Assembly: GCA_002070215.1 (NCBI GenBank)
Contig: MWCV01000003.1
Coordinates: 1-64,000 of the forward strand
Direction of reading: 5' to 3'
From: Chloroflexi bacterium ADurb.Bin180
Lineage (GTDB): Bacteria; Chloroflexota; Anaerolineae; UBA2200
Length of the DNA: 64,000 nt
The notes under the pieces are model-generated. The model was not told where the DNA came from and ran no database searches. It was given only the letters and a program-made list of their open reading frames with translations. Positions 30,530 through 39,665 of this stretch are shown piece by piece (position 1 is the first letter of the stretch; each line of letters begins with the position of its first letter). The translations under genes were made by a program, and so were the position numbers.

Positions 30530-30952
30530 ATGTTCCCGCAGATCCAACCTGGTTTGGAAAGCGAAATCGACAGCGTTGTCACGGCCGAGCACACTGCTCT
30601 CCACCTCGGCAGCGGCCGGGTGGCCGTCCTGGCGACGCCCCATATGATACGCCTGATGGAGACAGCGGCCGTACAGGCGGTCGATCCACTCCTGCCCGAT
30701 GGCTACTGCACAGTAGGTGTCCAGGCTGAGGTGAACCATCTGGCTGCCACTCCGGTTGGCATGAAAGTACACGTCACTGCCAGGCTCGTCGCTGTAGACG
30801 GCCGCAGGCTGACCTTCGACGTGACGGCCATAGATGAGCGCGAGGTCGTTGGCCAGGGCTCTCACCAACGAATGATCGTTGAAGCAGCTCGTTTCAAGCA
30901 GCGAGTTGCCGCCAAGCTCGCTGCCCCTGAGCCAGGAAAGGACTCGATATGA
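30530..30952 (+). CDS. FlK/thioesterase-family protein
   Basis: This 140-residue hotdog-fold protein resembles the fluoroacetyl-CoA thioesterase FlK family: VLATPHMIRLMETAAVQAV, then VNHLAATPVGMKVHVTARL, which hold the catalytic Glu and His-Thr positions of that group. Many bacteria that never meet fluoroacetate have such proteins, so it is best read as a small acyl-CoA thioesterase of unknown substrate. The RBS is weak (GAGG 12 bases upstream). Its stop overlaps the start of the DUF2207 gene (ATGA). Confidence 0.75.
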   Translation: MFPQIQPGLESEIDSVVTAEHTALHLGSGRVAVLATPHMIRLMETAAVQAVDPLLPDGYCTVGVQAEVNHLAATPVGMKVHVTARLVAVDGRRLTFDVTAIDEREVVGQGSHQRMIVEAARFKQRVAAKLAAPEPGKDSI

Positions 30953-32826
30953 ACAGGTTTACGCGCTACTGCTTGCTGCTGCTCGCTTTGCTGCTCGCCC
31001 TGATGACCTTGGCCATCAACGCGGGCCCAGTGCGGGCACAATCCAAGACCTACTACTGGGATAGTCTCGACGTCGACATCACCGTGCTCTCTGACTCGAC
31101 CGTCCGCATCGTCGAGACGCAAACCTATGTGTTCACCAGCGGAAGTTTCCATTTCGCCTACCGCGAGATTCCTCTCAGCCGCATCGAGAGCATCACCGAT
31201 GTCTCAGTGCGCGAAGGCGGCACCTCCTATCGGCAAGGCAGCGAGGATGCTGGCACGTTCAACACCTCCCGCCAGGACGGCAACTTGCGCATCACCTGGT
31301 ATTACCCCTATACCAGCAACGCCCAACGCACCTTCACCATCGCCTACACCTTGAAGGGCGCACTGCGGTTTTACGAGGGTGGCGATCAACTGTGGTGGAA
31401 GGCCGTGTTCGCCGACCGGGACTTTACGGTCCGTTCCTCCACGGTTACCGTGCACCTCCCCAGCGGCTCTACCACCGAATCCCTCAAAGTCGCCTCCTAT
31501 GGAGCATCGGCCGACTACCATATCGTCGATGCGCGGACGGTGGTGTTCACCGCAGCGGACATCGGTTCCGGGCAGGAACTCGAAGTGCGTGTTCAGTTCC
31601 CCCACGGCCTGGTCGCCGGAAAGCGAGCGGCCTGGCAGGTCCGCGAAGATCGCCTGCAAGACTATAACCAACGCTACCGCTCGATTGCCAACCTTGCCGG
31701 CGGGGTGCTCGGGCTGCTCGTCGCTGTAGCCGGTCTGGTGGGAGCCTTCCTCCTGTGGTTCCAGAAGGGGCGCGACTCTCCTACCGGCATCGTGTCGGAC
31801 TACCTGACGGAACCGCCGTCCGACATGCCGGCAGGACTGGTTGGGACCCTGCTCGACGAGAGCGCGGACATGAAGGATATCATCGCCTCCATCGTCGACC
31901 TGGGCCGCAGGGGTGTGATCACCATCACTGAGGAAGAGGAGCGGGGCTTTCTCGGCATCGGCACAAAGCGGGACTTTCGTTTTGACCTAAATCAAAGCCA
32001 AAGCGGCCTGCGGCCTTTCGAAGGGGAACTACTGAGGGGCCTTTTCCGGGGCGGGCGATCAACTACCCGGCTGTCGGACCTCAAAGACAAGTTCTACGAG
32101 GACATACCCGACATCAAAGACGAAATGTACAAGGCGGTGGTGAAGGAAGGTTTCTTCCCGCGCAGCCCCAAGACGACTCGAGAGCGCTACCGATTGCTGG
32201 GCATCGCTGTGATTGCCTTGGGCTTTGTTCTGGCGGTCGGTGGGGGCAGCCTTCTGTCGACCTATGTGGACACGGCCTTCTGCCCGGGGGCCGGCCTCTT
32301 GCTGCTAGGAGCGGTACTGACCAGCCTGAGCGGTAAGATGCCCAAAAAGACAGAGCTGGGCGTTACCGCAGCAGCGCAGTGGAAGGCCTTTCGCCGTTAC
32401 CTCGACAACATCGAGAAATACACCGACCTTAGCCAGGCCAAAGAGGTCTTTGACCGGTACCTACCTTATACCATCGTGTTTGGCCTCGAAAAAGAATGGG
32501 TCAGCAAGTTCGCCCGGGTCGACACCCCTGCTCCTGTCTGGTACCAACCTTACCGGCCAGTCGTCTACAGTGGCTCGGGCGGTAGAAGCGCTGCAGGCGG
32601 AGCACCGGACATCGGCGGGCGCGGCGCCCACCTTCCCTCCCTGCAAGGTGCCAGCGACAGCATGATGGGCTCGCTGCAGAGCATGAGCAACGGGCTCTTT
32701 AGCATGCTGAACTCGGCCTCCTCGACACTGGGCAGCTCACCCTCGAGCTCTGGCAGCGGAGGGTTCAGCGGCGGCGGGGGAGGCGGAGGCGGGGGAGGCG
32801 GCGGGGGCGGAGGCGGGGCCGGTTAG
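30949..32826 (+). CDS. DUF2207 membrane protein with polyglycine tail
   Basis: This 625-residue protein has a signal peptide (residues 1-30), an outer beta-rich DUF2207 domain (about 35-225, with YYWDSLDVDITVLSD and FHFAYREIP), a membrane helix near 245-268, a cytoplasmic region with a winged-helix-like stretch, two further hydrophobic segments near 425-460 and a conserved WKAFRRYLDN segment. It ends in a serine-rich linker and a run of sixteen glycines. Such tails are common in DUF2207 proteins; function is unknown, though a role at the envelope is likely. It converges with, and is a paralogue of, the protein encoded at 37938-39665. Confidence 0.82.
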   Translation: MNRFTRYCLLLLALLLALMTLAINAGPVRAQSKTYYWDSLDVDITVLSDSTVRIVETQTYVFTSGSFHFAYREIPLSRIESITDVSVREGGTSYRQGSEDAGTFNTSRQDGNLRITWYYPYTSNAQRTFTIAYTLKGALRFYEGGDQLWWKAVFADRDFTVRSSTVTVHLPSGSTTESLKVASYGASADYHIVDARTVVFTAADIGSGQELEVRVQFPHGLVAGKRAAWQVREDRLQDYNQRYRSIANLAGGVLGLLVAVAGLVGAFLLWFQKGRDSPTGIVSDYLTEPPSDMPAGLVGTLLDESADMKDIIASIVDLGRRGVITITEEEERGFLGIGTKRDFRFDLNQSQSGLRPFEGELLRGLFRGGRSTTRLSDLKDKFYEDIPDIKDEMYKAVVKEGFFPRSPKTTRERYRLLGIAVIALGFVLAVGGGSLLSTYVDTAFCPGAGLLLLGAVLTSLSGKMPKKTELGVTAAAQWKAFRRYLDNIEKYTDLSQAKEVFDRYLPYTIVFGLEKEWVSKFARVDTPAPVWYQPYRPVVYSGSGGRSAAGGAPDIGGRGAHLPSLQGASDSMMGSLQSMSNGLFSMLNSASSTLGSSPSSSGSGGFSGGGGGGGGGGGGGGGGAG

Positions 32827-32840
32827 TCCGGCCGGGTGCC

Positions 32841-34778
32841 CTACTGAGCGGCTCTAACGTGGAGCTCATAGGGCGAGGGGCTGTCCGCAAATCGCGTGAC
32901 GTCCGAAATGGCGACAACGGCGGGCGTGACCACCGTTACCTTTGTGTCACGCCCGCGCTCGACCCAGTAGCGCTCCAGTCGGACATCCCCGCGGTCGACG
33001 GCAAACGTCTGCAGCAGGTACCTGCGAGGAAGCACGTTGTCGGTGCGCACGAACCCTCGCCCTATCCATCCATCGTCGCCATGCTCGGCGTCGTAGGAGT
33101 AGCCCAGCTCGGGAATTCGCACGTCATCAATGCACAGGCCTGACTGACTTACCGCGTCGTCTGTGACGTATTCAAAGCGCAAGAGAACTGGACCTCCGAC
33201 GTATGGGCCCAGCTCGACGGTCTCCTCCAGCCAGACCGGCGCGGCAGGCCCTTCGCCAGCCGACCGTCCGGTGTAACCCGGGCCATAGCTCTGACCGGTC
33301 GGGTTGCTCATCGTCGTGTGTGTTCCGCTCAGCACCCGCCAGGTTCTGCCGCCATCGGGCGAGGCCTCGACGTAGGCGTAATCCCATCCGTCCTCGATGT
33401 CATACCACAACGAGAACTGCAGGTGAGCCGCGGCAAGACCGGTGAGGTCAAACGACCGGGTCAGGGTCATGTCGCTGTTGTCGGCCCGGTTTGACCACCA
33501 GAAGTGAGCACCGCTGTGTGGCGTCGCCGGCACCAGTTGCGCCTCACTTGCGGCGGAGAAACCGAGCTCGACCGACTCGCCTCCGCCCTCAAACACGACA
33601 TAGTCCGTGCCAAAAGGATTCACAGTCCCGCCGACCTTGGCCGGGTATGCCGACACCTTGGTCTGCGGCCTCACCGACACCTGTAGCGCGTCATAGGCCC
33701 AGGGCTTGACAGCACTCTCATAACCATCCGCATAGTTGGCCACGGCCCAGTCGGCAAACAGGTCCTCAAAGGTCAATCCGGTACCCAGGGCGGCCAGCAC
33801 CGTATCGTAGCCCGCTATGCCGTTCGCGCCTGTGGCTACCAGGCGACGCACCGCATCAAGCCCAAAACGTTGGGCAAAGTAGGCCGAGAAGAGAAAGGCG
33901 GCGCTGTAGTGCTGGCTGGTAGTCGCGTCATCCGCACTCCATTGGGTCAGTGCGACGTCAGGATGCCCGGCAAAGGTAGAGAGGCGGTTGGCCTTGAGGT
34001 AGCCGCACAGCAGCTCGGCGAGTTCCGAGAGTCCCTCGCTAACCCAGGACTCTTCGTTCGAGTCGGCCTGCCAGTGGATGAGGTGCTGCAGTTCGTGGGC
34101 CAGCGTCGAGTTGTAAGCGTCCGAGCCCACTTCCCCGTTGCCGGCTGCCATATAGAACATGGCTCGCTCGTTGCTGGAGGAAATGACCGAGGTCGGATAG
34201 AGATCCGAGCTCGAGAAGTAGCCGTCAGCACCCTTGAGGCGCAGATTCAAGATAGTCACCGGCTCATAGCCCACCGCGCCCTGGGCCGGCAGTGGGCCGA
34301 ACTCGCCCGTTACGACCGGCAGAATCTTGTCTTCAAATGCCCGCGCCGACTCGAGCAACGCCGCCTCGGGGATGTCGATTCCATTCTCAACCCAGATGTA
34401 AGCCGGCGGCCCGGCGTAGCGTAGGGTGGCCTCAGTCTGGTATGAGCGCGAGGAGGCGAGATCCAGCACCCAGAATGTGGCGCGAGCTCCTACCTGCTGA
34501 GAAGAGGGTGTCGCAACGGGATACTGCCTCTCGCCCTGCCAGCCGCGCAGCCGTTCCGCCAGATCATAGGGATCAGCCTCGGGGACGACCGCCCTGGATA
34601 GCGTCTCGAGCGTACTTTCGCTGCCGACAGGCAGCTCAGTGGTAACAGGTGCCGGTTTGCTGGCTGAGCCTTCGACCCACGTACCCTGGGTCAAGGCGCG
34701 GCACAGGCCAGCCCAGAGGGCCAGGCCCAGCGCCGCAAAGAGCAGCAGGACCAGCACCCCTCTCCAATATTGCCTCAA
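32841..34778 (-). CDS. Membrane-anchored HExxH metalloprotease
   Basis: After a short N-terminus and one membrane helix (about residues 6-30), the 645-residue protein has an extracellular zinc protease domain with HELQHLIHW (HELQH at 228-232) and an ESWVSEGLSELAE glutamate motif downstream, the layout of gluzincins related to hyicolysin or immune inhibitor A. A beta-sandwich domain follows in the C-terminal half (LQFSLWYDIEDGWDYAYVEA), as in M6 peptidases. The start is uncertain: TTG at 34778 has GAAGGA upstream and avoids a 91-base overlap with the preceding gene that ATG at 34877 would give. It is the last gene of the ACHS/radical SAM operon and could process its exported products. Confidence 0.75.
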   Translation of the reverse strand: MRQYWRGVLVLLLFAALGLALWAGLCRALTQGTWVEGSASKPAPVTTELPVGSESTLETLSRAVVPEADPYDLAERLRGWQGERQYPVATPSSQQVGARATFWVLDLASSRSYQTEATLRYAGPPAYIWVENGIDIPEAALLESARAFEDKILPVVTGEFGPLPAQGAVGYEPVTILNLRLKGADGYFSSSDLYPTSVISSSNERAMFYMAAGNGEVGSDAYNSTLAHELQHLIHWQADSNEESWVSEGLSELAELLCGYLKANRLSTFAGHPDVALTQWSADDATTSQHYSAAFLFSAYFAQRFGLDAVRRLVATGANGIAGYDTVLAALGTGLTFEDLFADWAVANYADGYESAVKPWAYDALQVSVRPQTKVSAYPAKVGGTVNPFGTDYVVFEGGGESVELGFSAASEAQLVPATPHSGAHFWWSNRADNSDMTLTRSFDLTGLAAAHLQFSLWYDIEDGWDYAYVEASPDGGRTWRVLSGTHTTMSNPTGQSYGPGYTGRSAGEGPAAPVWLEETVELGPYVGGPVLLRFEYVTDDAVSQSGLCIDDVRIPELGYSYDAEHGDDGWIGRGFVRTDNVLPRRYLLQTFAVDRGDVRLERYWVERGRDTKVTVVTPAVVAISDVTRFADSPSPYELHVRAAQ

Positions 34779-34786
34779 AGGGGCGA

Positions 34787-35278
34787 CTATTCCTTCGTGA
34801 TCTCCAGATTCGCCCCGCAGTTCGGACACTGGCGCATGGCGCTCTTGACCGCGAATTCGCTGCCACAGTAGGGACAACGTTTGATCGCTTTGGCTGGCAT
34901 CACACCCTTGAACAGATACGCATCGATGTCCTTACGCTGCTCACGCTGGCACTCACCCCGCCCACACAGACGTTCCAGCGCACCCAGAGCCATCGCGTTG
35001 GGGATCCGAAACTCGGCCTGCACCTGGGAAACGGTGACCTCGCCGCCCAGGCGGCGTGCCAGGTCGACAATGCCGGTGGCCAGCGCCTCCGGGCTGATCT
35101 CAGCCAGCCGGCGCAGGCGGAAGGCACCAGCCGCCAGGAGGAGCCCGCCAATGACCAGCAGGGCCAGGGCGGTCAGAAAGCGGCTCGGATTCGTGGCTGC
35201 CGCGATCAGAAAGATCAGACCAAAGCCCAGGAACGGTATGGATATGAGAATGACCAGAATAGAAGTCAGTTTGCTCAT
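34787..35278 (-). CDS. Membrane protein with C-terminal zinc ribbon
   Basis: I do not recognise the family of this 163-residue protein. Two membrane helices (about 4-28 and 34-52) are followed by a winged-helix-like region (ALATGIVDLARRLGGEVTVS) and a C-terminal zinc ribbon with CPYCGSEF and CPNCGANLE. Similar small proteins in Chloroflexota and Planctomycetes are of unknown function. It lies in the operon between the coiled-coil gene and the metalloprotease gene, 42 bases after the former. Confidence 0.7.
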   Translation of the reverse strand: MSKLTSILVILISIPFLGFGLIFLIAAATNPSRFLTALALLVIGGLLLAAGAFRLRRLAEISPEALATGIVDLARRLGGEVTVSQVQAEFRIPNAMALGALERLCGRGECQREQRKDIDAYLFKGVMPAKAIKRCPYCGSEFAVKSAMRQCPNCGANLEITKE

Positions 35279-35320: not shown

Positions 35321-36469
35321 CTAGCGCCACTGCTTGGTGGCGGCTGTCAGGGCTGCCCCCATCTGCTCAAACATCTTTTGGATCTGCGTGGTTCCCAGGC
35401 GCGACCCAACGGCCTCTTTGACCTTCTGGCTGAACTCCAGGGGGTGTGTCCCCAGGTACTTTTCGTCCTTGACCATTGCCTGGAGCGTCGGCCAGTAGGC
35501 GTGAAAGGCGGTTACCTCATCCGGAATCGAGAGGCGGAGCTCAGCCAGCTTGTAGCGGGTTTGTTCCTCGTACACCGTGCCGACGCTGCGGATGAAGCGG
35601 TCCATCCCCTCGCCCAGGCCCTTCAGCAGGCCCAGGATCTCGGCCACGCTGGTAAGGCCGATGACATAGTTACCCACGCTCTTGTTCAGTTCTGTCAACG
35701 GAGTCAGGCGGTCGCGCCATGACCCGGCAACGGAGGGCGGCTCCCGCAGTTCGACCAGCAAGTTGCGTGCCGCGTTTTCCCTGCTCCGCGGCTCCAGGTT
35801 GCCGCTCAGGTCATCGAGAAGAGCCTGCTTCTGAGAGATCTCCACACTCAGAGTCTGCCACCTGGTCTGCATCTCCAACTGGCCAGCCTGCACCTGTTCT
35901 CGGAGCGTCTTCCATTTCTCGCGCACAGTCCGAATTCCCTGATCCATCGAGGCAACGTTCCCCGCCAGTTTCTTGCGCTCGGCTTGCAGGCGCCGCCGTG
36001 CCGCGTAGCCGGTCAGGCAGCCCATACGCTTGATCTGCGCATCGAGCTCGTCCAGTTGCTGCTGCAGCGCCGCGCGGCGTGCCTTGAGTTTCTCCTCCTG
36101 CTGGTCAAGCACGGGATTCTGCTCGCGCAGATACGCAATCTGCTTCTGCCCCTCAGCGATGAGCCGCTCCGAGTTCTGCCTCGTTTCCGTTAGCTCCTTG
36201 CTCAGTGCAGCGATTCGGTCCAACAGCAACTGCCGCTCCACCTGAACACGAGCCTCCAGAGCCTGCTTGAGCTCCTCGGTGAGGTCAGTACCTGCCAGCA
36301 ACTGGGGAGCCAGCGTGGACAAGACCTTGTTGCGCTCGTTCAGTTGGCGCGTATGCAGGTCATTGAACTGGAACTGGATCTCCTCCACCTCGCGGTAGAC
36401 ATCGGCCATCCGCTGCCGACTGGTGCGAACATAGTTGTAGAACTGGGCAAGGGTCATTGCCGTTGCCAT
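35321..36469 (-). CDS. Coiled-coil protein of unknown function
   Basis: This 382-residue protein has no signal peptide or membrane segment. Residues about 15-225 form long coiled coils (for example EEKLKARRAALQQQLDELDA). The C-terminal 150 residues are globular, with a GLLKGLGEGMDRFIRSVGTV helix. The ATG at 36469 has GGGAGGAG 6 bases upstream; a longer start at 36502 lacks one. It follows the radical SAM gene by 49 bases and may be a cytoplasmic scaffold or partner for it. No function can be assigned. Confidence 0.7.
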   Translation of the reverse strand: MATAMTLAQFYNYVRTSRQRMADVYREVEEIQFQFNDLHTRQLNERNKVLSTLAPQLLAGTDLTEELKQALEARVQVERQLLLDRIAALSKELTETRQNSERLIAEGQKQIAYLREQNPVLDQQEEKLKARRAALQQQLDELDAQIKRMGCLTGYAARRRLQAERKKLAGNVASMDQGIRTVREKWKTLREQVQAGQLEMQTRWQTLSVEISQKQALLDDLSGNLEPRSRENAARNLLVELREPPSVAGSWRDRLTPLTELNKSVGNYVIGLTSVAEILGLLKGLGEGMDRFIRSVGTVYEEQTRYKLAELRLSIPDEVTAFHAYWPTLQAMVKDEKYLGTHPLEFSQKVKEAVGSRLGTTQIQKMFEQMGAALTAATKQWR

Positions 36470-36518
36470 AGCCTCTCCTCCCGCTTTCGATGCCCGCCGC
36501 ATCTCGCCATCGCTGCGG

Positions 36519-37925
36519 CTAGCGCAGGCCCACGCCTTTGGCCTGGCCCCACAGCCGGCGTTCTACCCGCCACCGGACATCGTTCCACCACCGGCCTTTG
36601 TGGCCGGCAGCTTCCAGCTCCCCAAAACCTCCGTGAGCGTGCCAATACAACGGGCATGCGCCACAACAGATATGCTTGATGTCACACCGTTCGCAGACCG
36701 GAGGCAGAAAGCGCTTCTTGCGCCAGTACAGCGCCTGGCGGCTGAACCACAGCTCGGCGAAAGGCCGAGCCAGCAGGTTACCGATCCCACGCTCATAGCT
36801 GGAGCACGGCAGCAATTCGCCGTCCGGAGCGACCGAGAGCAGCCCATCGATGCAGGCGCAGGACTTGGACCCGAGCCCGTGTGTGACCGGGTTGAACAGG
36901 CAGTAGGGCGTGGGCGAATACCAGACCAGCTTGGTTCCCTTCTGCCTGGCCCGTGCCTGCAGCTGCTCGATCATCGCGCCTAGTTCGGTATAGGTGACTT
37001 CTTCCTCCGCATGCTTGAGCGCGGTGCCTGTGCTGATCATCACGTTCATTGAAAAGTACTCGGAATGCAGCTCGTCGGCGATATAGTCGACCAGCTCCAG
37101 CAAGTGGTCGCGGTTGCTGCCACAGATGGTGGTATTGGTATGGGTGTGAATGCCCGCCTCGCGCAGACAGTGCACGGCTTGAGTGGTCAGCTCGAACGCC
37201 CCGGGGTGCCGCACCACCAGGTCGTGCACTTGCGGGGTAGGTCCCTCGAGGCTCACCTGAGCCGAATCGAGGCCTGCCTCTTTGAGCCGGGCTACAAACT
37301 CCGGGTTGGCGCACTTGAGTCCATTGGTGATCAGGTTCACCCTCATGCCTTTGGACTTGGCATAGCTAACCAGCTCGGGCAGGTCGTCACGCAGCGTTGG
37401 CTCTCCACCGGTGAAGGAGACGGTCGGACAGTGAGCATCATCAAAGATGCGGTCGATGATGACCTTGACCTCGTCCGTCGTCATCTCGTGCACCTGCGTG
37501 CCTCTGTTGGGCGACTCGGCGTAGCAGAAAACGCACTTGTTCTGGCAGCGGTAGGTCAGGGCGATCTCGGAGAGAACTGGCAGGTCTCTCTGCTGCGATC
37601 CAAAGGGGATCTCGCGCACCGCCGGGGCGCCGCAGACGTCGTCGCGAAGGAGAGCAGCCACGCTGATCAACAGCCTCTCCAGATCCTCTCTGACGCGGGC
37701 CTCATCGACCGCAAACTCGGCGGCGACAGCGCGCACAGCTTCTTCTGTATCGACTGCGCTTCCGTGGTCGTACAAACGCGACAACAGCGCAAGGGCCGTC
37801 CGGTTCAGGCGGTGCACCCGATTCGGGCGCAGGATGAACAGGCCATCCTCGGGCCGGATGTAGATATAGTCCCTGGTCTGTGTCACCAGTTCAGTGGCAA
37901 AGGACTGCAGTTCAGCCGCTTCCAT
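36519..37925 (-). CDS. PqqD-like/radical SAM/SPASM peptide maturase
   Basis: This 468-residue enzyme has a PqqD-like N-terminal domain (about 30-95, VHRLNRTALALLSRLYDHG), which in RiPP systems binds the precursor peptide. The radical SAM core has the 4Fe-4S cysteines C127, C131 and C134 (CQNKCVFC) and GGEP at 173-176. The SPASM region has many cysteines (356, 358, 374, 411, 414, 420, 421, 424) for auxiliary clusters. The layout is that of PqqE, anSME and sactipeptide or ranthipeptide maturases. It starts 12 bases after the Cys/His-repeat DUF2207 gene, whose tail is the obvious substrate candidate. The RBS is weak, so translation is probably coupled. Confidence 0.85.
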   Translation of the reverse strand: MEAAELQSFATELVTQTRDYIYIRPEDGLFILRPNRVHRLNRTALALLSRLYDHGSAVDTEEAVRAVAAEFAVDEARVREDLERLLISVAALLRDDVCGAPAVREIPFGSQQRDLPVLSEIALTYRCQNKCVFCYAESPNRGTQVHEMTTDEVKVIIDRIFDDAHCPTVSFTGGEPTLRDDLPELVSYAKSKGMRVNLITNGLKCANPEFVARLKEAGLDSAQVSLEGPTPQVHDLVVRHPGAFELTTQAVHCLREAGIHTHTNTTICGSNRDHLLELVDYIADELHSEYFSMNVMISTGTALKHAEEEVTYTELGAMIEQLQARARQKGTKLVWYSPTPYCLFNPVTHGLGSKSCACIDGLLSVAPDGELLPCSSYERGIGNLLARPFAELWFSRQALYWRKKRFLPPVCERCDIKHICCGACPLYWHAHGGFGELEAAGHKGRWWNDVRWRVERRLWGQAKGVGLR

Positions 37926-37937
37926 CGGCCCAGGACC

Positions 37938-39665
37938 CTAGAATCGCCCTACGCAGGCGCTGTGGCAGGCGCTGTGGCAGGCGCTATGACACACGCAGGC
38001 ACTGTGACAGGCGCTGTGACAGGCATCGTGTACGCAGGCGCTGTGGCACGCGTCGTGGACGCACGCGCTGTGGCAGGCACTATGACAGGCACTATGACAG
38101 GCGTCATAGCCGGCCGCAGCGGCCGACTCTTTGCCTGTCACCTTGGCGACTGCGCCCTCGATCCCGGCCGCAACCTTGGACACCGTCGTCTCCACGCTGC
38201 GGCTCACGTCGCGAGCGAGGCTCTCGATAGGCGTCACCGCTTGCTCGGCCGCCCGGGCCAGAGGACCGGGTTCGGCTGCGGACCCTCCCCCGAGCGGCTG
38301 CGGCGCGCTGGGGCGATCGCGAATGATGATCCAGGGCGTGTAGGGCTGCCGCCACACCGTGGGCCCCTCGCGCACTGTGGTCGGCGCACGGTCGAACTCG
38401 TCCCAGGCATCACGAATACGTTTGTCGTAAGATTCCCTGGTGGCCTTGGGATCGGCGTTCCAGACCTTGGGTTGGATGGCCGCCGCCACCGCACTCAGAA
38501 TCGTCGGCACTTTGGCCTGGTCAATCGTGCCGTCCTCCAGCAGAGCATCAACCAGGGCCTTCTCATAGGCCGTCATCTCGCTCTTGGGGTTGGTGACCTC
38601 GAGCTGCAGCGGGTTGCGGTTAATGATGGATAAAACGCCGCGATTCACCAACGATAGGACAATCAACGTGATCGTCCGCGCCGAATTGCCCATGTAGAAT
38701 GCCGTCTCAATGGCATTCAGGTCCGGGACAACGCCCGCTGTCTCAAACGTCTCCAGCTCAATCTCCGGAGGCTCATAGACTGGCTTCTTGGGCCGGCGCT
38801 TGACCACCAGTGCCACGACCACAGCGACTCCGAGAACCACTATCATTCCCATGCAAAAGATGAGCCCCAGCGCCGCCCGAGTCCATCCTGTCCCGCCAGA
38901 TGGCTGGACTGGCGTTGGGCTGGGTTTCAGCGGGATTTCGGTCTCGCTCGTCGTTGGGATCGTGCTGCCCCGCAGGTAGAACGGCGGTTGAATCTTGCCC
39001 TTGGGCGGCACGTTCTTTTTTTCAACATAGATGGACAGCCAGTTCTTGCCAGTAGTCTCGTCGGGGGTTGGGAAGTAGACCCAGCGCGTGAAGTCGCTCA
39101 GCCGACCCACCTTCACGCCGGCCGCGTTCACAATCGCATCGGTCACTTGCTCGGGCCTGGTAATGTCGGCAGGCAGCTCGATTGGCAGAACGAAGGTCGC
39201 TCCGAGCACTTCGATCCCCAGTGACCACTCGCCCGATGCCCAGCCGATGATCCGATAGTCCTCACCGTCGATCTTGGTGGCGTCAAAGACAGAGCGATCC
39301 ACGGTGTAGCGGACGGTGAGCACATACTGGCTCCCCTTGCGGGTGCTGGTCGCAAAGAGCGCTGAGTACACTCCGGCGCGGCCGGTAGGCTGGAGCGTCA
39401 CCTGGAAACGCCCGTCGGGGCCAGAACCGTAGGCTTCGAGGATCGTGTGCGGACTCTCCAGCGGTGGCAGTTCCTTGATGCGGTCGCGGCCATTTTCGCG
39501 CTCGGTGAAAGTCAGCTCGTACTTGACCCGCAGTCGACCATCTTGAAGGACGGTGACGTAGTAGTCGGATTTATTCAGAGTGACTGGATCTTGGGCCTGC
39601 ACCGCGGCCGGCATGGAGACAAGCACAATCAGCAGGGCCGCCAGGGCCAATAGCCATCTCTTCAT
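37938..39665 (-). CDS. DUF2207-like membrane protein with C-terminal Ala-Cys-His-Ser repeat tail
   Basis: This 575-residue protein has a signal peptide (MKRWLLALAALLIVLVSMPA), an outer DUF2207 domain (about 25-235), a Pro/Thr linker, one membrane helix (264-288) followed by basic KRRPKK, a cytoplasmic domain with a winged-helix-like part, an amphipathic helix and a tail (about 521-575) made of ACHS repeats. The tail has nine CHSA units, two VHDA spacers, 13 Cys and 11 His, and ends ACVGRF. By the positive-inside rule the tail is in the cytoplasm, where the radical SAM enzyme of the next gene could reach it. The start at 39665 has GGAGGAGG upstream; the longer reading from 39770 would include the promoter. 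Confidence 0.85.
   Translation of the reverse strand: MKRWLLALAALLIVLVSMPAAVQAQDPVTLNKSDYYVTVLQDGRLRVKYELTFTERENGRDRIKELPPLESPHTILEAYGSGPDGRFQVTLQPTGRAGVYSALFATSTRKGSQYVLTVRYTVDRSVFDATKIDGEDYRIIGWASGEWSLGIEVLGATFVLPIELPADITRPEQVTDAIVNAAGVKVGRLSDFTRWVYFPTPDETTGKNWLSIYVEKKNVPPKGKIQPPFYLRGSTIPTTSETEIPLKPSPTPVQPSGGTGWTRAALGLIFCMGMIVVLGVAVVVALVVKRRPKKPVYEPPEIELETFETAGVVPDLNAIETAFYMGNSARTITLIVLSLVNRGVLSIINRNPLQLEVTNPKSEMTAYEKALVDALLEDGTIDQAKVPTILSAVAAAIQPKVWNADPKATRESYDKRIRDAWDEFDRAPTTVREGPTVWRQPYTPWIIIRDRPSAPQPLGGGSAAEPGPLARAAEQAVTPIESLARDVSRSVETTVSKVAAGIEGAVAKVTGKESAAAAGYDACHSACHSACHSACVHDACHSACVHDACHSACHSACVCHSACHSACHSACVGRF
37947..38105 (-). repeat. Degenerate 12-base tandem repeat encoding ACHS units
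   Basis: The 3' end of the DUF2207-like gene is built from imperfect 12-base units (GCC-TGY-CAY-AGY) with two VHD interruptions and one VC. Synonymous codons vary between units (TGT/TGC, CAT/CAC, AGT/AGC, GCC/GCG), so the repeat has been kept for its protein sequence rather than formed by recent slippage. Confidence 0.9.

Follow-up and report, generated by a model that had tools for sequence, protein, structure and literature searches.

We have identified, in a stretch of 64,000 nucleotides from Chloroflexi bacterium ADurb.Bin180 (contig MWCV01000003.1, positions 1 to 64,000; hereafter the window), a gene pair that probably constitutes a dedicated post-translational modification system, in which a PqqD-radical SAM-SPASM enzyme would modify the Cys/His tail of a retained membrane protein (M), with a coiled-coil and a zinc-ribbon protein as partners (Table 1). 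We suggest from sequence comparison that the tail is the dedicated substrate of the enzyme, as this is the simplest account of a near-obligate, bidirectional and cross-phylum pairing with an enzyme of the peptide-maturase type, and that it probably serves M as a working part in chemically modified form, of a kind so far unnamed.

Table 1 Features of the modification system, its surroundings in the window and its sister system.
Feature	Coordinates	Strand	Basis
PqqD-radical SAM-SPASM enzyme, 468 aa, candidate tail-modifying enzyme	36519..37925	-	Pfam domains, AF2
PqqD-like domain of enzyme (peptide-binding type), residues 31-86	37668..37835	-	PF05402, 30.6 bits, cut-off 23.4
CxxxCxxC radical SAM motif (C127, C131, C134)	37524..37547	-	invariant in 46/46 homologues
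SPASM region, 7 invariant Cys (C342, C356, C374, C411, C414, C420, C424)	36654..36902	-	46/46 homologues
Membrane protein M (P0001), 575 aa, one TM	37938..39665	-	AF2 and remote TIGR04222 match
Conserved cytosolic core domain of M	38331..38768	-	homologous to core of CACA-tail proteins
Tail of M, residues 520-575, candidate substrate	37941..38108	-	most conserved M segment
Coiled-coil protein, 393 aa, conserved third gene	35321..36502	-	homologue in 57/80 loci
Small zinc-ribbon protein, 163 aa, conserved fourth gene	34787..35278	-	in 59/80 loci
Membrane-anchored protein with HELxH metallopeptidase-like motif, after the zinc-ribbon gene	32841-34877	-	homologue in 18 Chloroflexota loci
True DUF2207 protein (P0004), Gly-rich tail, near the operon	30949-32826	+	
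CACA sister system	L046:6531-11569; also L019-L044		membrane protein with tail CACACACAGCACACAGGGR and active-looking PqqD-rSAM-SPASM enzyme

The M gene starts with the ATG at 39665, a few bases downstream of an AGGAGG read off the sequence, and its stop (37938) is separated from the ATG of the enzyme gene (37925) by 12 bases, the spacing given in the initial annotation. The AF2 model of M (pLDDT 74 overall and 85-97 across most of the folded part) corresponds to a layout of a signal peptide, an exported beta domain (residues 29-232), a single transmembrane segment (263-290), a cytosolic domain (about 300-445) and a long helix (468-509), followed by the tail. As the basic stretch KRRPKK directly follows the transmembrane segment, positive-inside logic places the tail in the cytosol, that is, on the same side as the enzyme; the predicted signal peptide, the one transmembrane segment and these basic residues support the inner-face location that had been proposed. 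The description of M as DUF2207-like holds only as a remote relation: M itself has no Pfam match, DUF2207 included, and the homologues L014 and L098, at 25.5 and 26.3 bits, just exceed the gathering cut-off of 24.4 for PF09972. Against the NCBIfam model TIGR04222, M scores 33.2 bits (below the cut-off of 43), and 23 of 28 relatives match this model at E<=0.01 (best E 1.1e-9). The cytosolic cores of CHSA-tailed M proteins and of the CACA-tailed proteins of a sister system are homologous (hhalign profile comparison, probability 99.9%, E 2e-34), which, together with the weak TIGR04222 match, suggests one membrane-protein scaffold with several tail types. The core domain is also a possible docking site for the enzyme. 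A fold search with M returned a weak likeness to the N-terminal beta domain of M1 aminopeptidases, which we set aside as uninformative.

The tail (YDACHSACHSACHSACVHDACHSACVHDACHSACHSACVCHSACHSACHSACVGRF) holds nine CHSA units, 13 Cys and 11 His at its minus-strand position, as first counted, and is predicted to be disordered (AF2, pLDDT about 36). In 27 M proteins of equal tail length, the tail codons have a pS of 0.77 and a pN of 0.12, compared with a pS of 0.5-0.83 and a pN of 0.25-0.6 for most other segments of M; a few other segments have a low pN with an equally low pS, which we attribute to recent divergence of near-identical rows. Among 554 C-x3-C units, 528 are C-HSA-C and 17 are C-HDA-C, and the order of units is fixed across Chloroflexota. 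Given that synonymous change is saturated and the peptide is fixed, codon comparison indicates that purifying selection acts on the tail peptide rather than that a DNA repeat has drifted. The tail ends (VxxF, GGFR, SCAGxF and GGxH) vary by enzyme clade, and end types cluster on the enzyme tree, in which no weight was given to the deep position of the CACA clade or to the very long branches of L122 and L127 (probably a wrong reading frame). The last five residues of M (37941-37955; CVxxF in Chloroflexota) are modelled as a strand with a pLDDT of about 70.

For the enzyme, the PqqD-like domain, CxxxCxxC motif and Cys-rich SPASM region that had been read from the sequence are borne out by Pfam scores above cut-off (PqqD 30.6, Radical_SAM 100.8 and SPASM 29.8 bits) and by the invariance of the Cys residues. 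The SPASM region fits CX9-15GX4C-gap-CX2CX5CX3C, that is, the first six positions of the full motif (CX9-15GX4C-gap-CX2CX5CX3C-gap-C; PMC6231123), whose final Cys is absent; C342 is an extra invariant Cys in the linker. Seven Cys ligands for two clusters would leave one site open or held by a non-Cys ligand, as has been discussed for AlbA, CteB and PqqE (PMC6231123). In the AF2 model (pLDDT 90), the nearest folds are SkfB, SuiB, BlsE and CteB, and its structural neighbours belong to the RRE-bearing peptide maturases.

Pairing of tail and enzyme in Chloroflexota is seen from both directions. Starting from the tail, three of the 301 Chloroflexota genomes searched contain the CHSACHSAC DNA pattern (reversed control, 0 of 301); the three sites turn out to be one and the same gene in one and the same setting (M, enzyme, coiled-coil protein, in this order), and the enzyme is present in all three genomes. 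Starting from the enzyme, 29 of 400 Chloroflexota genomes contain matches (E<=1e-60), 30 in all, and each of these adjoins a Cys-tailed membrane protein. The tail is of the CHSA type at four of them (where the enzymes are 52-100% identical) and of a sister type at the other 26 (31-37%), the latter being found in 25 of the 400 genomes and as a second such enzyme in G011. The sister (CACA) tail shows little variation in its 26 Chloroflexota loci and contains no His, and in the examples examined its operon continues with a second PqqD-radical SAM protein without CxxxCxxC and a methyltransferase. CACA tails occur in 13 of 150 Anaerolineae genomes, each of which has the enzyme (adjacent or on another contig), and each of the seven genomes sampled from the order to which the window belongs has the CHSA-type enzyme.

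In a wider scan, a profile of four enzymes run against 84,980 genomes yielded 80 loci, a count that draws on two peptide patterns only and that members with neither pattern escape. By record title, these loci fall in Chloroflexota, Armatimonadota, Caldisericota, Spirochaetota, Cloacimonadota, Acidobacteriota, Myxococcota, Wallbacteria, Riflebacteria, Gemmatimonadota and Calditrichota and in the archaeal Thorarchaeota, Heimdallarchaeota and Thermoproteota, which amounts to about a dozen phyla of bacteria together with archaea of the Asgard group and Thermoproteota. The genomes are mostly MAGs, and some of the phylum names may result from misbinning (L103 and L104 are almost identical but carry two different ones). 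A CHSA tail gene adjoins the enzyme in 67 of the 80 loci, mostly just upstream, divergently in Thorarchaeota and downstream of the coiled-coil gene in L085 (order enzyme-coil-M); gene order varies between loci and the pairing is kept. In L079, L080 and L082 the tail lies on another contig of the same genome, so that tail and enzyme co-occur even when unlinked; in L086 M is cut off at a contig end, and in L064, L065, L070, L078, L109, L112 and L114 the contig begins within 1.2 kb of the enzyme. A genome search detected no tail in L106 and L076, both MAGs that may be incomplete; these two loci speak against the substrate reading. Enzyme homologues that regularly occur without a tail protein, which the initial annotation named as the observation that would speak against its proposal, were looked for and were not found, either in Chloroflexota or in the wider scan. 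Directly upstream of the CHSA-type enzyme of the Thermoproteota MAG locus L086 lies an open frame of 310 aa (L086:3-932) that contains CPTG-like units by the dozen and a transmembrane segment at its C-terminus, possibly another Cys-repeat protein. Three viral records (L137, L138 and L141) contain short CHSA/CNSA repeats, probably 12-base tandem repeats, with no enzyme on the DNA examined; other viral CHSA matches are single or scattered and come without a tail protein.

Two further genes accompany the pair. The coiled-coil protein, for which no specific family was found in NCBIfam or Pfam, would serve as a scaffold or partner, and the small protein encoded next combines N-terminal hydrophobic stretches, a helical middle and a C-terminal zinc ribbon whose matches lie slightly below the Pfam cut-off (in Thorarchaeota, the match to its gene is weak and on the opposite strand). 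The co-occurrence of tail and enzyme could stem from a shared pathway rather than from an enzyme and its substrate, which is a point against the substrate reading. In a rival reading, the tail would bind metal (Zn, Cu or Fe-S) through its Cys and His residues without being modified, as a module of a stress or metal sensor, and the enzyme would act on another partner or a small molecule of the same pathway. Cys and His are classic metal ligands, a zinc-ribbon protein is encoded in the operon, and the models of the haem enzymes AhbD and NirJ2 give the enzyme its top NCBIfam scores, albeit far short of the cut-off (141.6 of 500 bits). However, the His-free sister tail still pairs with the sister enzyme, the enzyme combines a PqqD peptide-binding domain with structural neighbours among RRE-type maturases, and the tail is more constant than any third partner; we thus consider an unmodified module unlikely.

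Building on the established pairing, conservation, domain make-up and predicted topology, we infer that M would span the cytoplasmic membrane, exposing its beta domain on the outside and keeping its core domain and disordered tail on the inside. The enzyme carries at its N-terminus a PqqD-like domain similar to the one with which RiPP maturases bind peptides; it would dock on M (probably at the core domain or at the stretch preceding the tail) and proceed along the CHSA repeats using 5'-deoxyadenosyl radicals and its SPASM clusters. Given the known chemistry of SPASM maturases and the Cys content of the tail, the likeliest chemistry would be oxidative crosslinking of Cys (for example, thioethers from the Cys sulfur to a backbone or side-chain carbon), each crosslink changing the mass by -2 Da; against this, SPASM enzymes cover many chemistries, the bond type is not readable from sequence, and CACA tails give few acceptors besides Ala, Cys and Gly. 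The product would probably stay attached as a metal- or redox-active Cys/His module (a guess at its role made from composition), which the coiled-coil and zinc-ribbon proteins would use or sense.

Retention appears likelier than cleavage, given the size and conservation of M and given that the loci compared share no dedicated protease or exporter throughout. In a conventional RiPP pathway, M would instead be a carrier from which the tail, once modified, is cleaved and released, for example as a metallophore. The repeats and the PqqD domain suit RiPP logic, and 18 Chloroflexota loci have a metallopeptidase-like gene downstream, yet the product of this gene is predicted to lie outside and the tail in the cytosol, and M is unlike a leader, which makes release decidedly unlikely. 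Much less probable still is a variant of the TIGR04222-MNIO pathway in which an oxidase encoded at another site also acts on the tail: M has a remote relation to TIGR04222, and membrane proteins of this family with Cys-rich C-terminal regions often adjoin MNIO (DUF692) genes and are proposed substrates of the encoded enzymes (PMC12452194), but the window's genome (95% complete) has no match to the MNIO model PF05114. A chance low-complexity tail or DNA repeat expansion independent of the enzyme, as might be suggested by simple 12-base CHSA repeats without the enzyme in some viral contigs, is already refuted by saturated synonymous change under a fixed peptide, by the fixed unit order, by bidirectional pairing across phyla and by the reversed control of the DNA pattern.

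Modification of a retained tail by the adjacent enzyme would tie a so far unexplained family of proteins to a so far unnamed family of enzymes in one testable system that spans about a dozen bacterial phyla and several archaea. No model in NCBIfam (June 2026) or Pfam covers the M-enzyme pair, and the literature searched contains no paper that links DUF2207 with radical SAM enzymes or describes the pair and no mention of the tail strings CHSACHSAC, CACACACAG or CHSAC, for which earlier mention in subscription papers is possible; the Asgard/RiPP and His-Xaa-Ser literature provides background only. A paper on 5-thiohistidine mentions DUF2207 and itself concludes that the link is not functional. 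The published proposal nearest to ours pairs TIGR04222 proteins with MNIO oxidases (PMC12452194) and nowhere refers to SPASM, PqqD or Chloroflexota. If the tail is retained, the reach of radical SAM maturation would no longer end at short peptides but would include the tails of large membrane proteins, and an array rich in Cys and His on the inner side of the membrane could hold metals or sense the redox state in a new way; the system also suggests a partner enzyme for some Cys-tailed membrane proteins without MNIO genes. As a tentative generalization, which we rate at somewhat below an even chance, widespread membrane proteins of bacteria and archaea (Asgard included) would bear a permanent, radical-SAM-installed cytosolic Cys/His polymer as a metal or redox element within a membrane complex rather than as a peptide to be released, with CHSA, CACA and MNIO-linked TIGR04222 tails as three enzymatic solutions on one scaffold.

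Among known systems, the Gly-tailed DUF2207 protein encoded near the operon (SMU.243 of S. mutans is an example of this family; PMC10457818) resembles M in its exported N-terminal domain, transmembrane segment, cytosolic domain and low-complexity C-terminus; it differs in its Gly tail and in the absence of an adjacent maturase, and is possibly an unmodified counterpart of M. Homologues of this protein are convergent to the system in L056-L059. The ACGX-repeat and His-Xaa-Ser (HxsA-D) systems likewise combine a repeat peptide containing Cys or His/Ser with a SPASM-type enzyme, whereas here the repeat is CHSA and stands at the end of a membrane protein; the enzyme reaches the NCBIfam cut-off of neither of these types, which the initial annotation mentions (ACGX, TIGR04340, 105.9 of 400 bits; HxsC, TIGR03977, 79.8 of 267.9 bits). 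Nearest by profile and fold are the maturases of sactipeptides and ranthipeptides (SkfB and CteB), which share the combination of RRE, radical SAM and SPASM/Twitch domains and Cys-rich substrates (the score for SkfB, TIGR04403, is 69.8 of 300 bits, also below cut-off); their precursors are short and free, whereas the candidate substrate here is the tail of a membrane protein of 500-1000 aa. The TIGR04222-MNIO systems share with ours a membrane protein with a remotely homologous core domain and a C-terminal Cys-rich low-complexity segment that is the candidate substrate of a co-encoded RiPP-type enzyme. They differ in that this enzyme is an MNIO rather than a PqqD-radical SAM-SPASM protein, in tails of Gly/Ser with interspersed Cys rather than a strict C-HSA-C repeat, and in the placement of these tails, which the authors of the MNIO survey assign to the periplasm (PMC12452194), whereas the tail of M, itself below the TIGR04222 cut-off, is predicted to be cytosolic.
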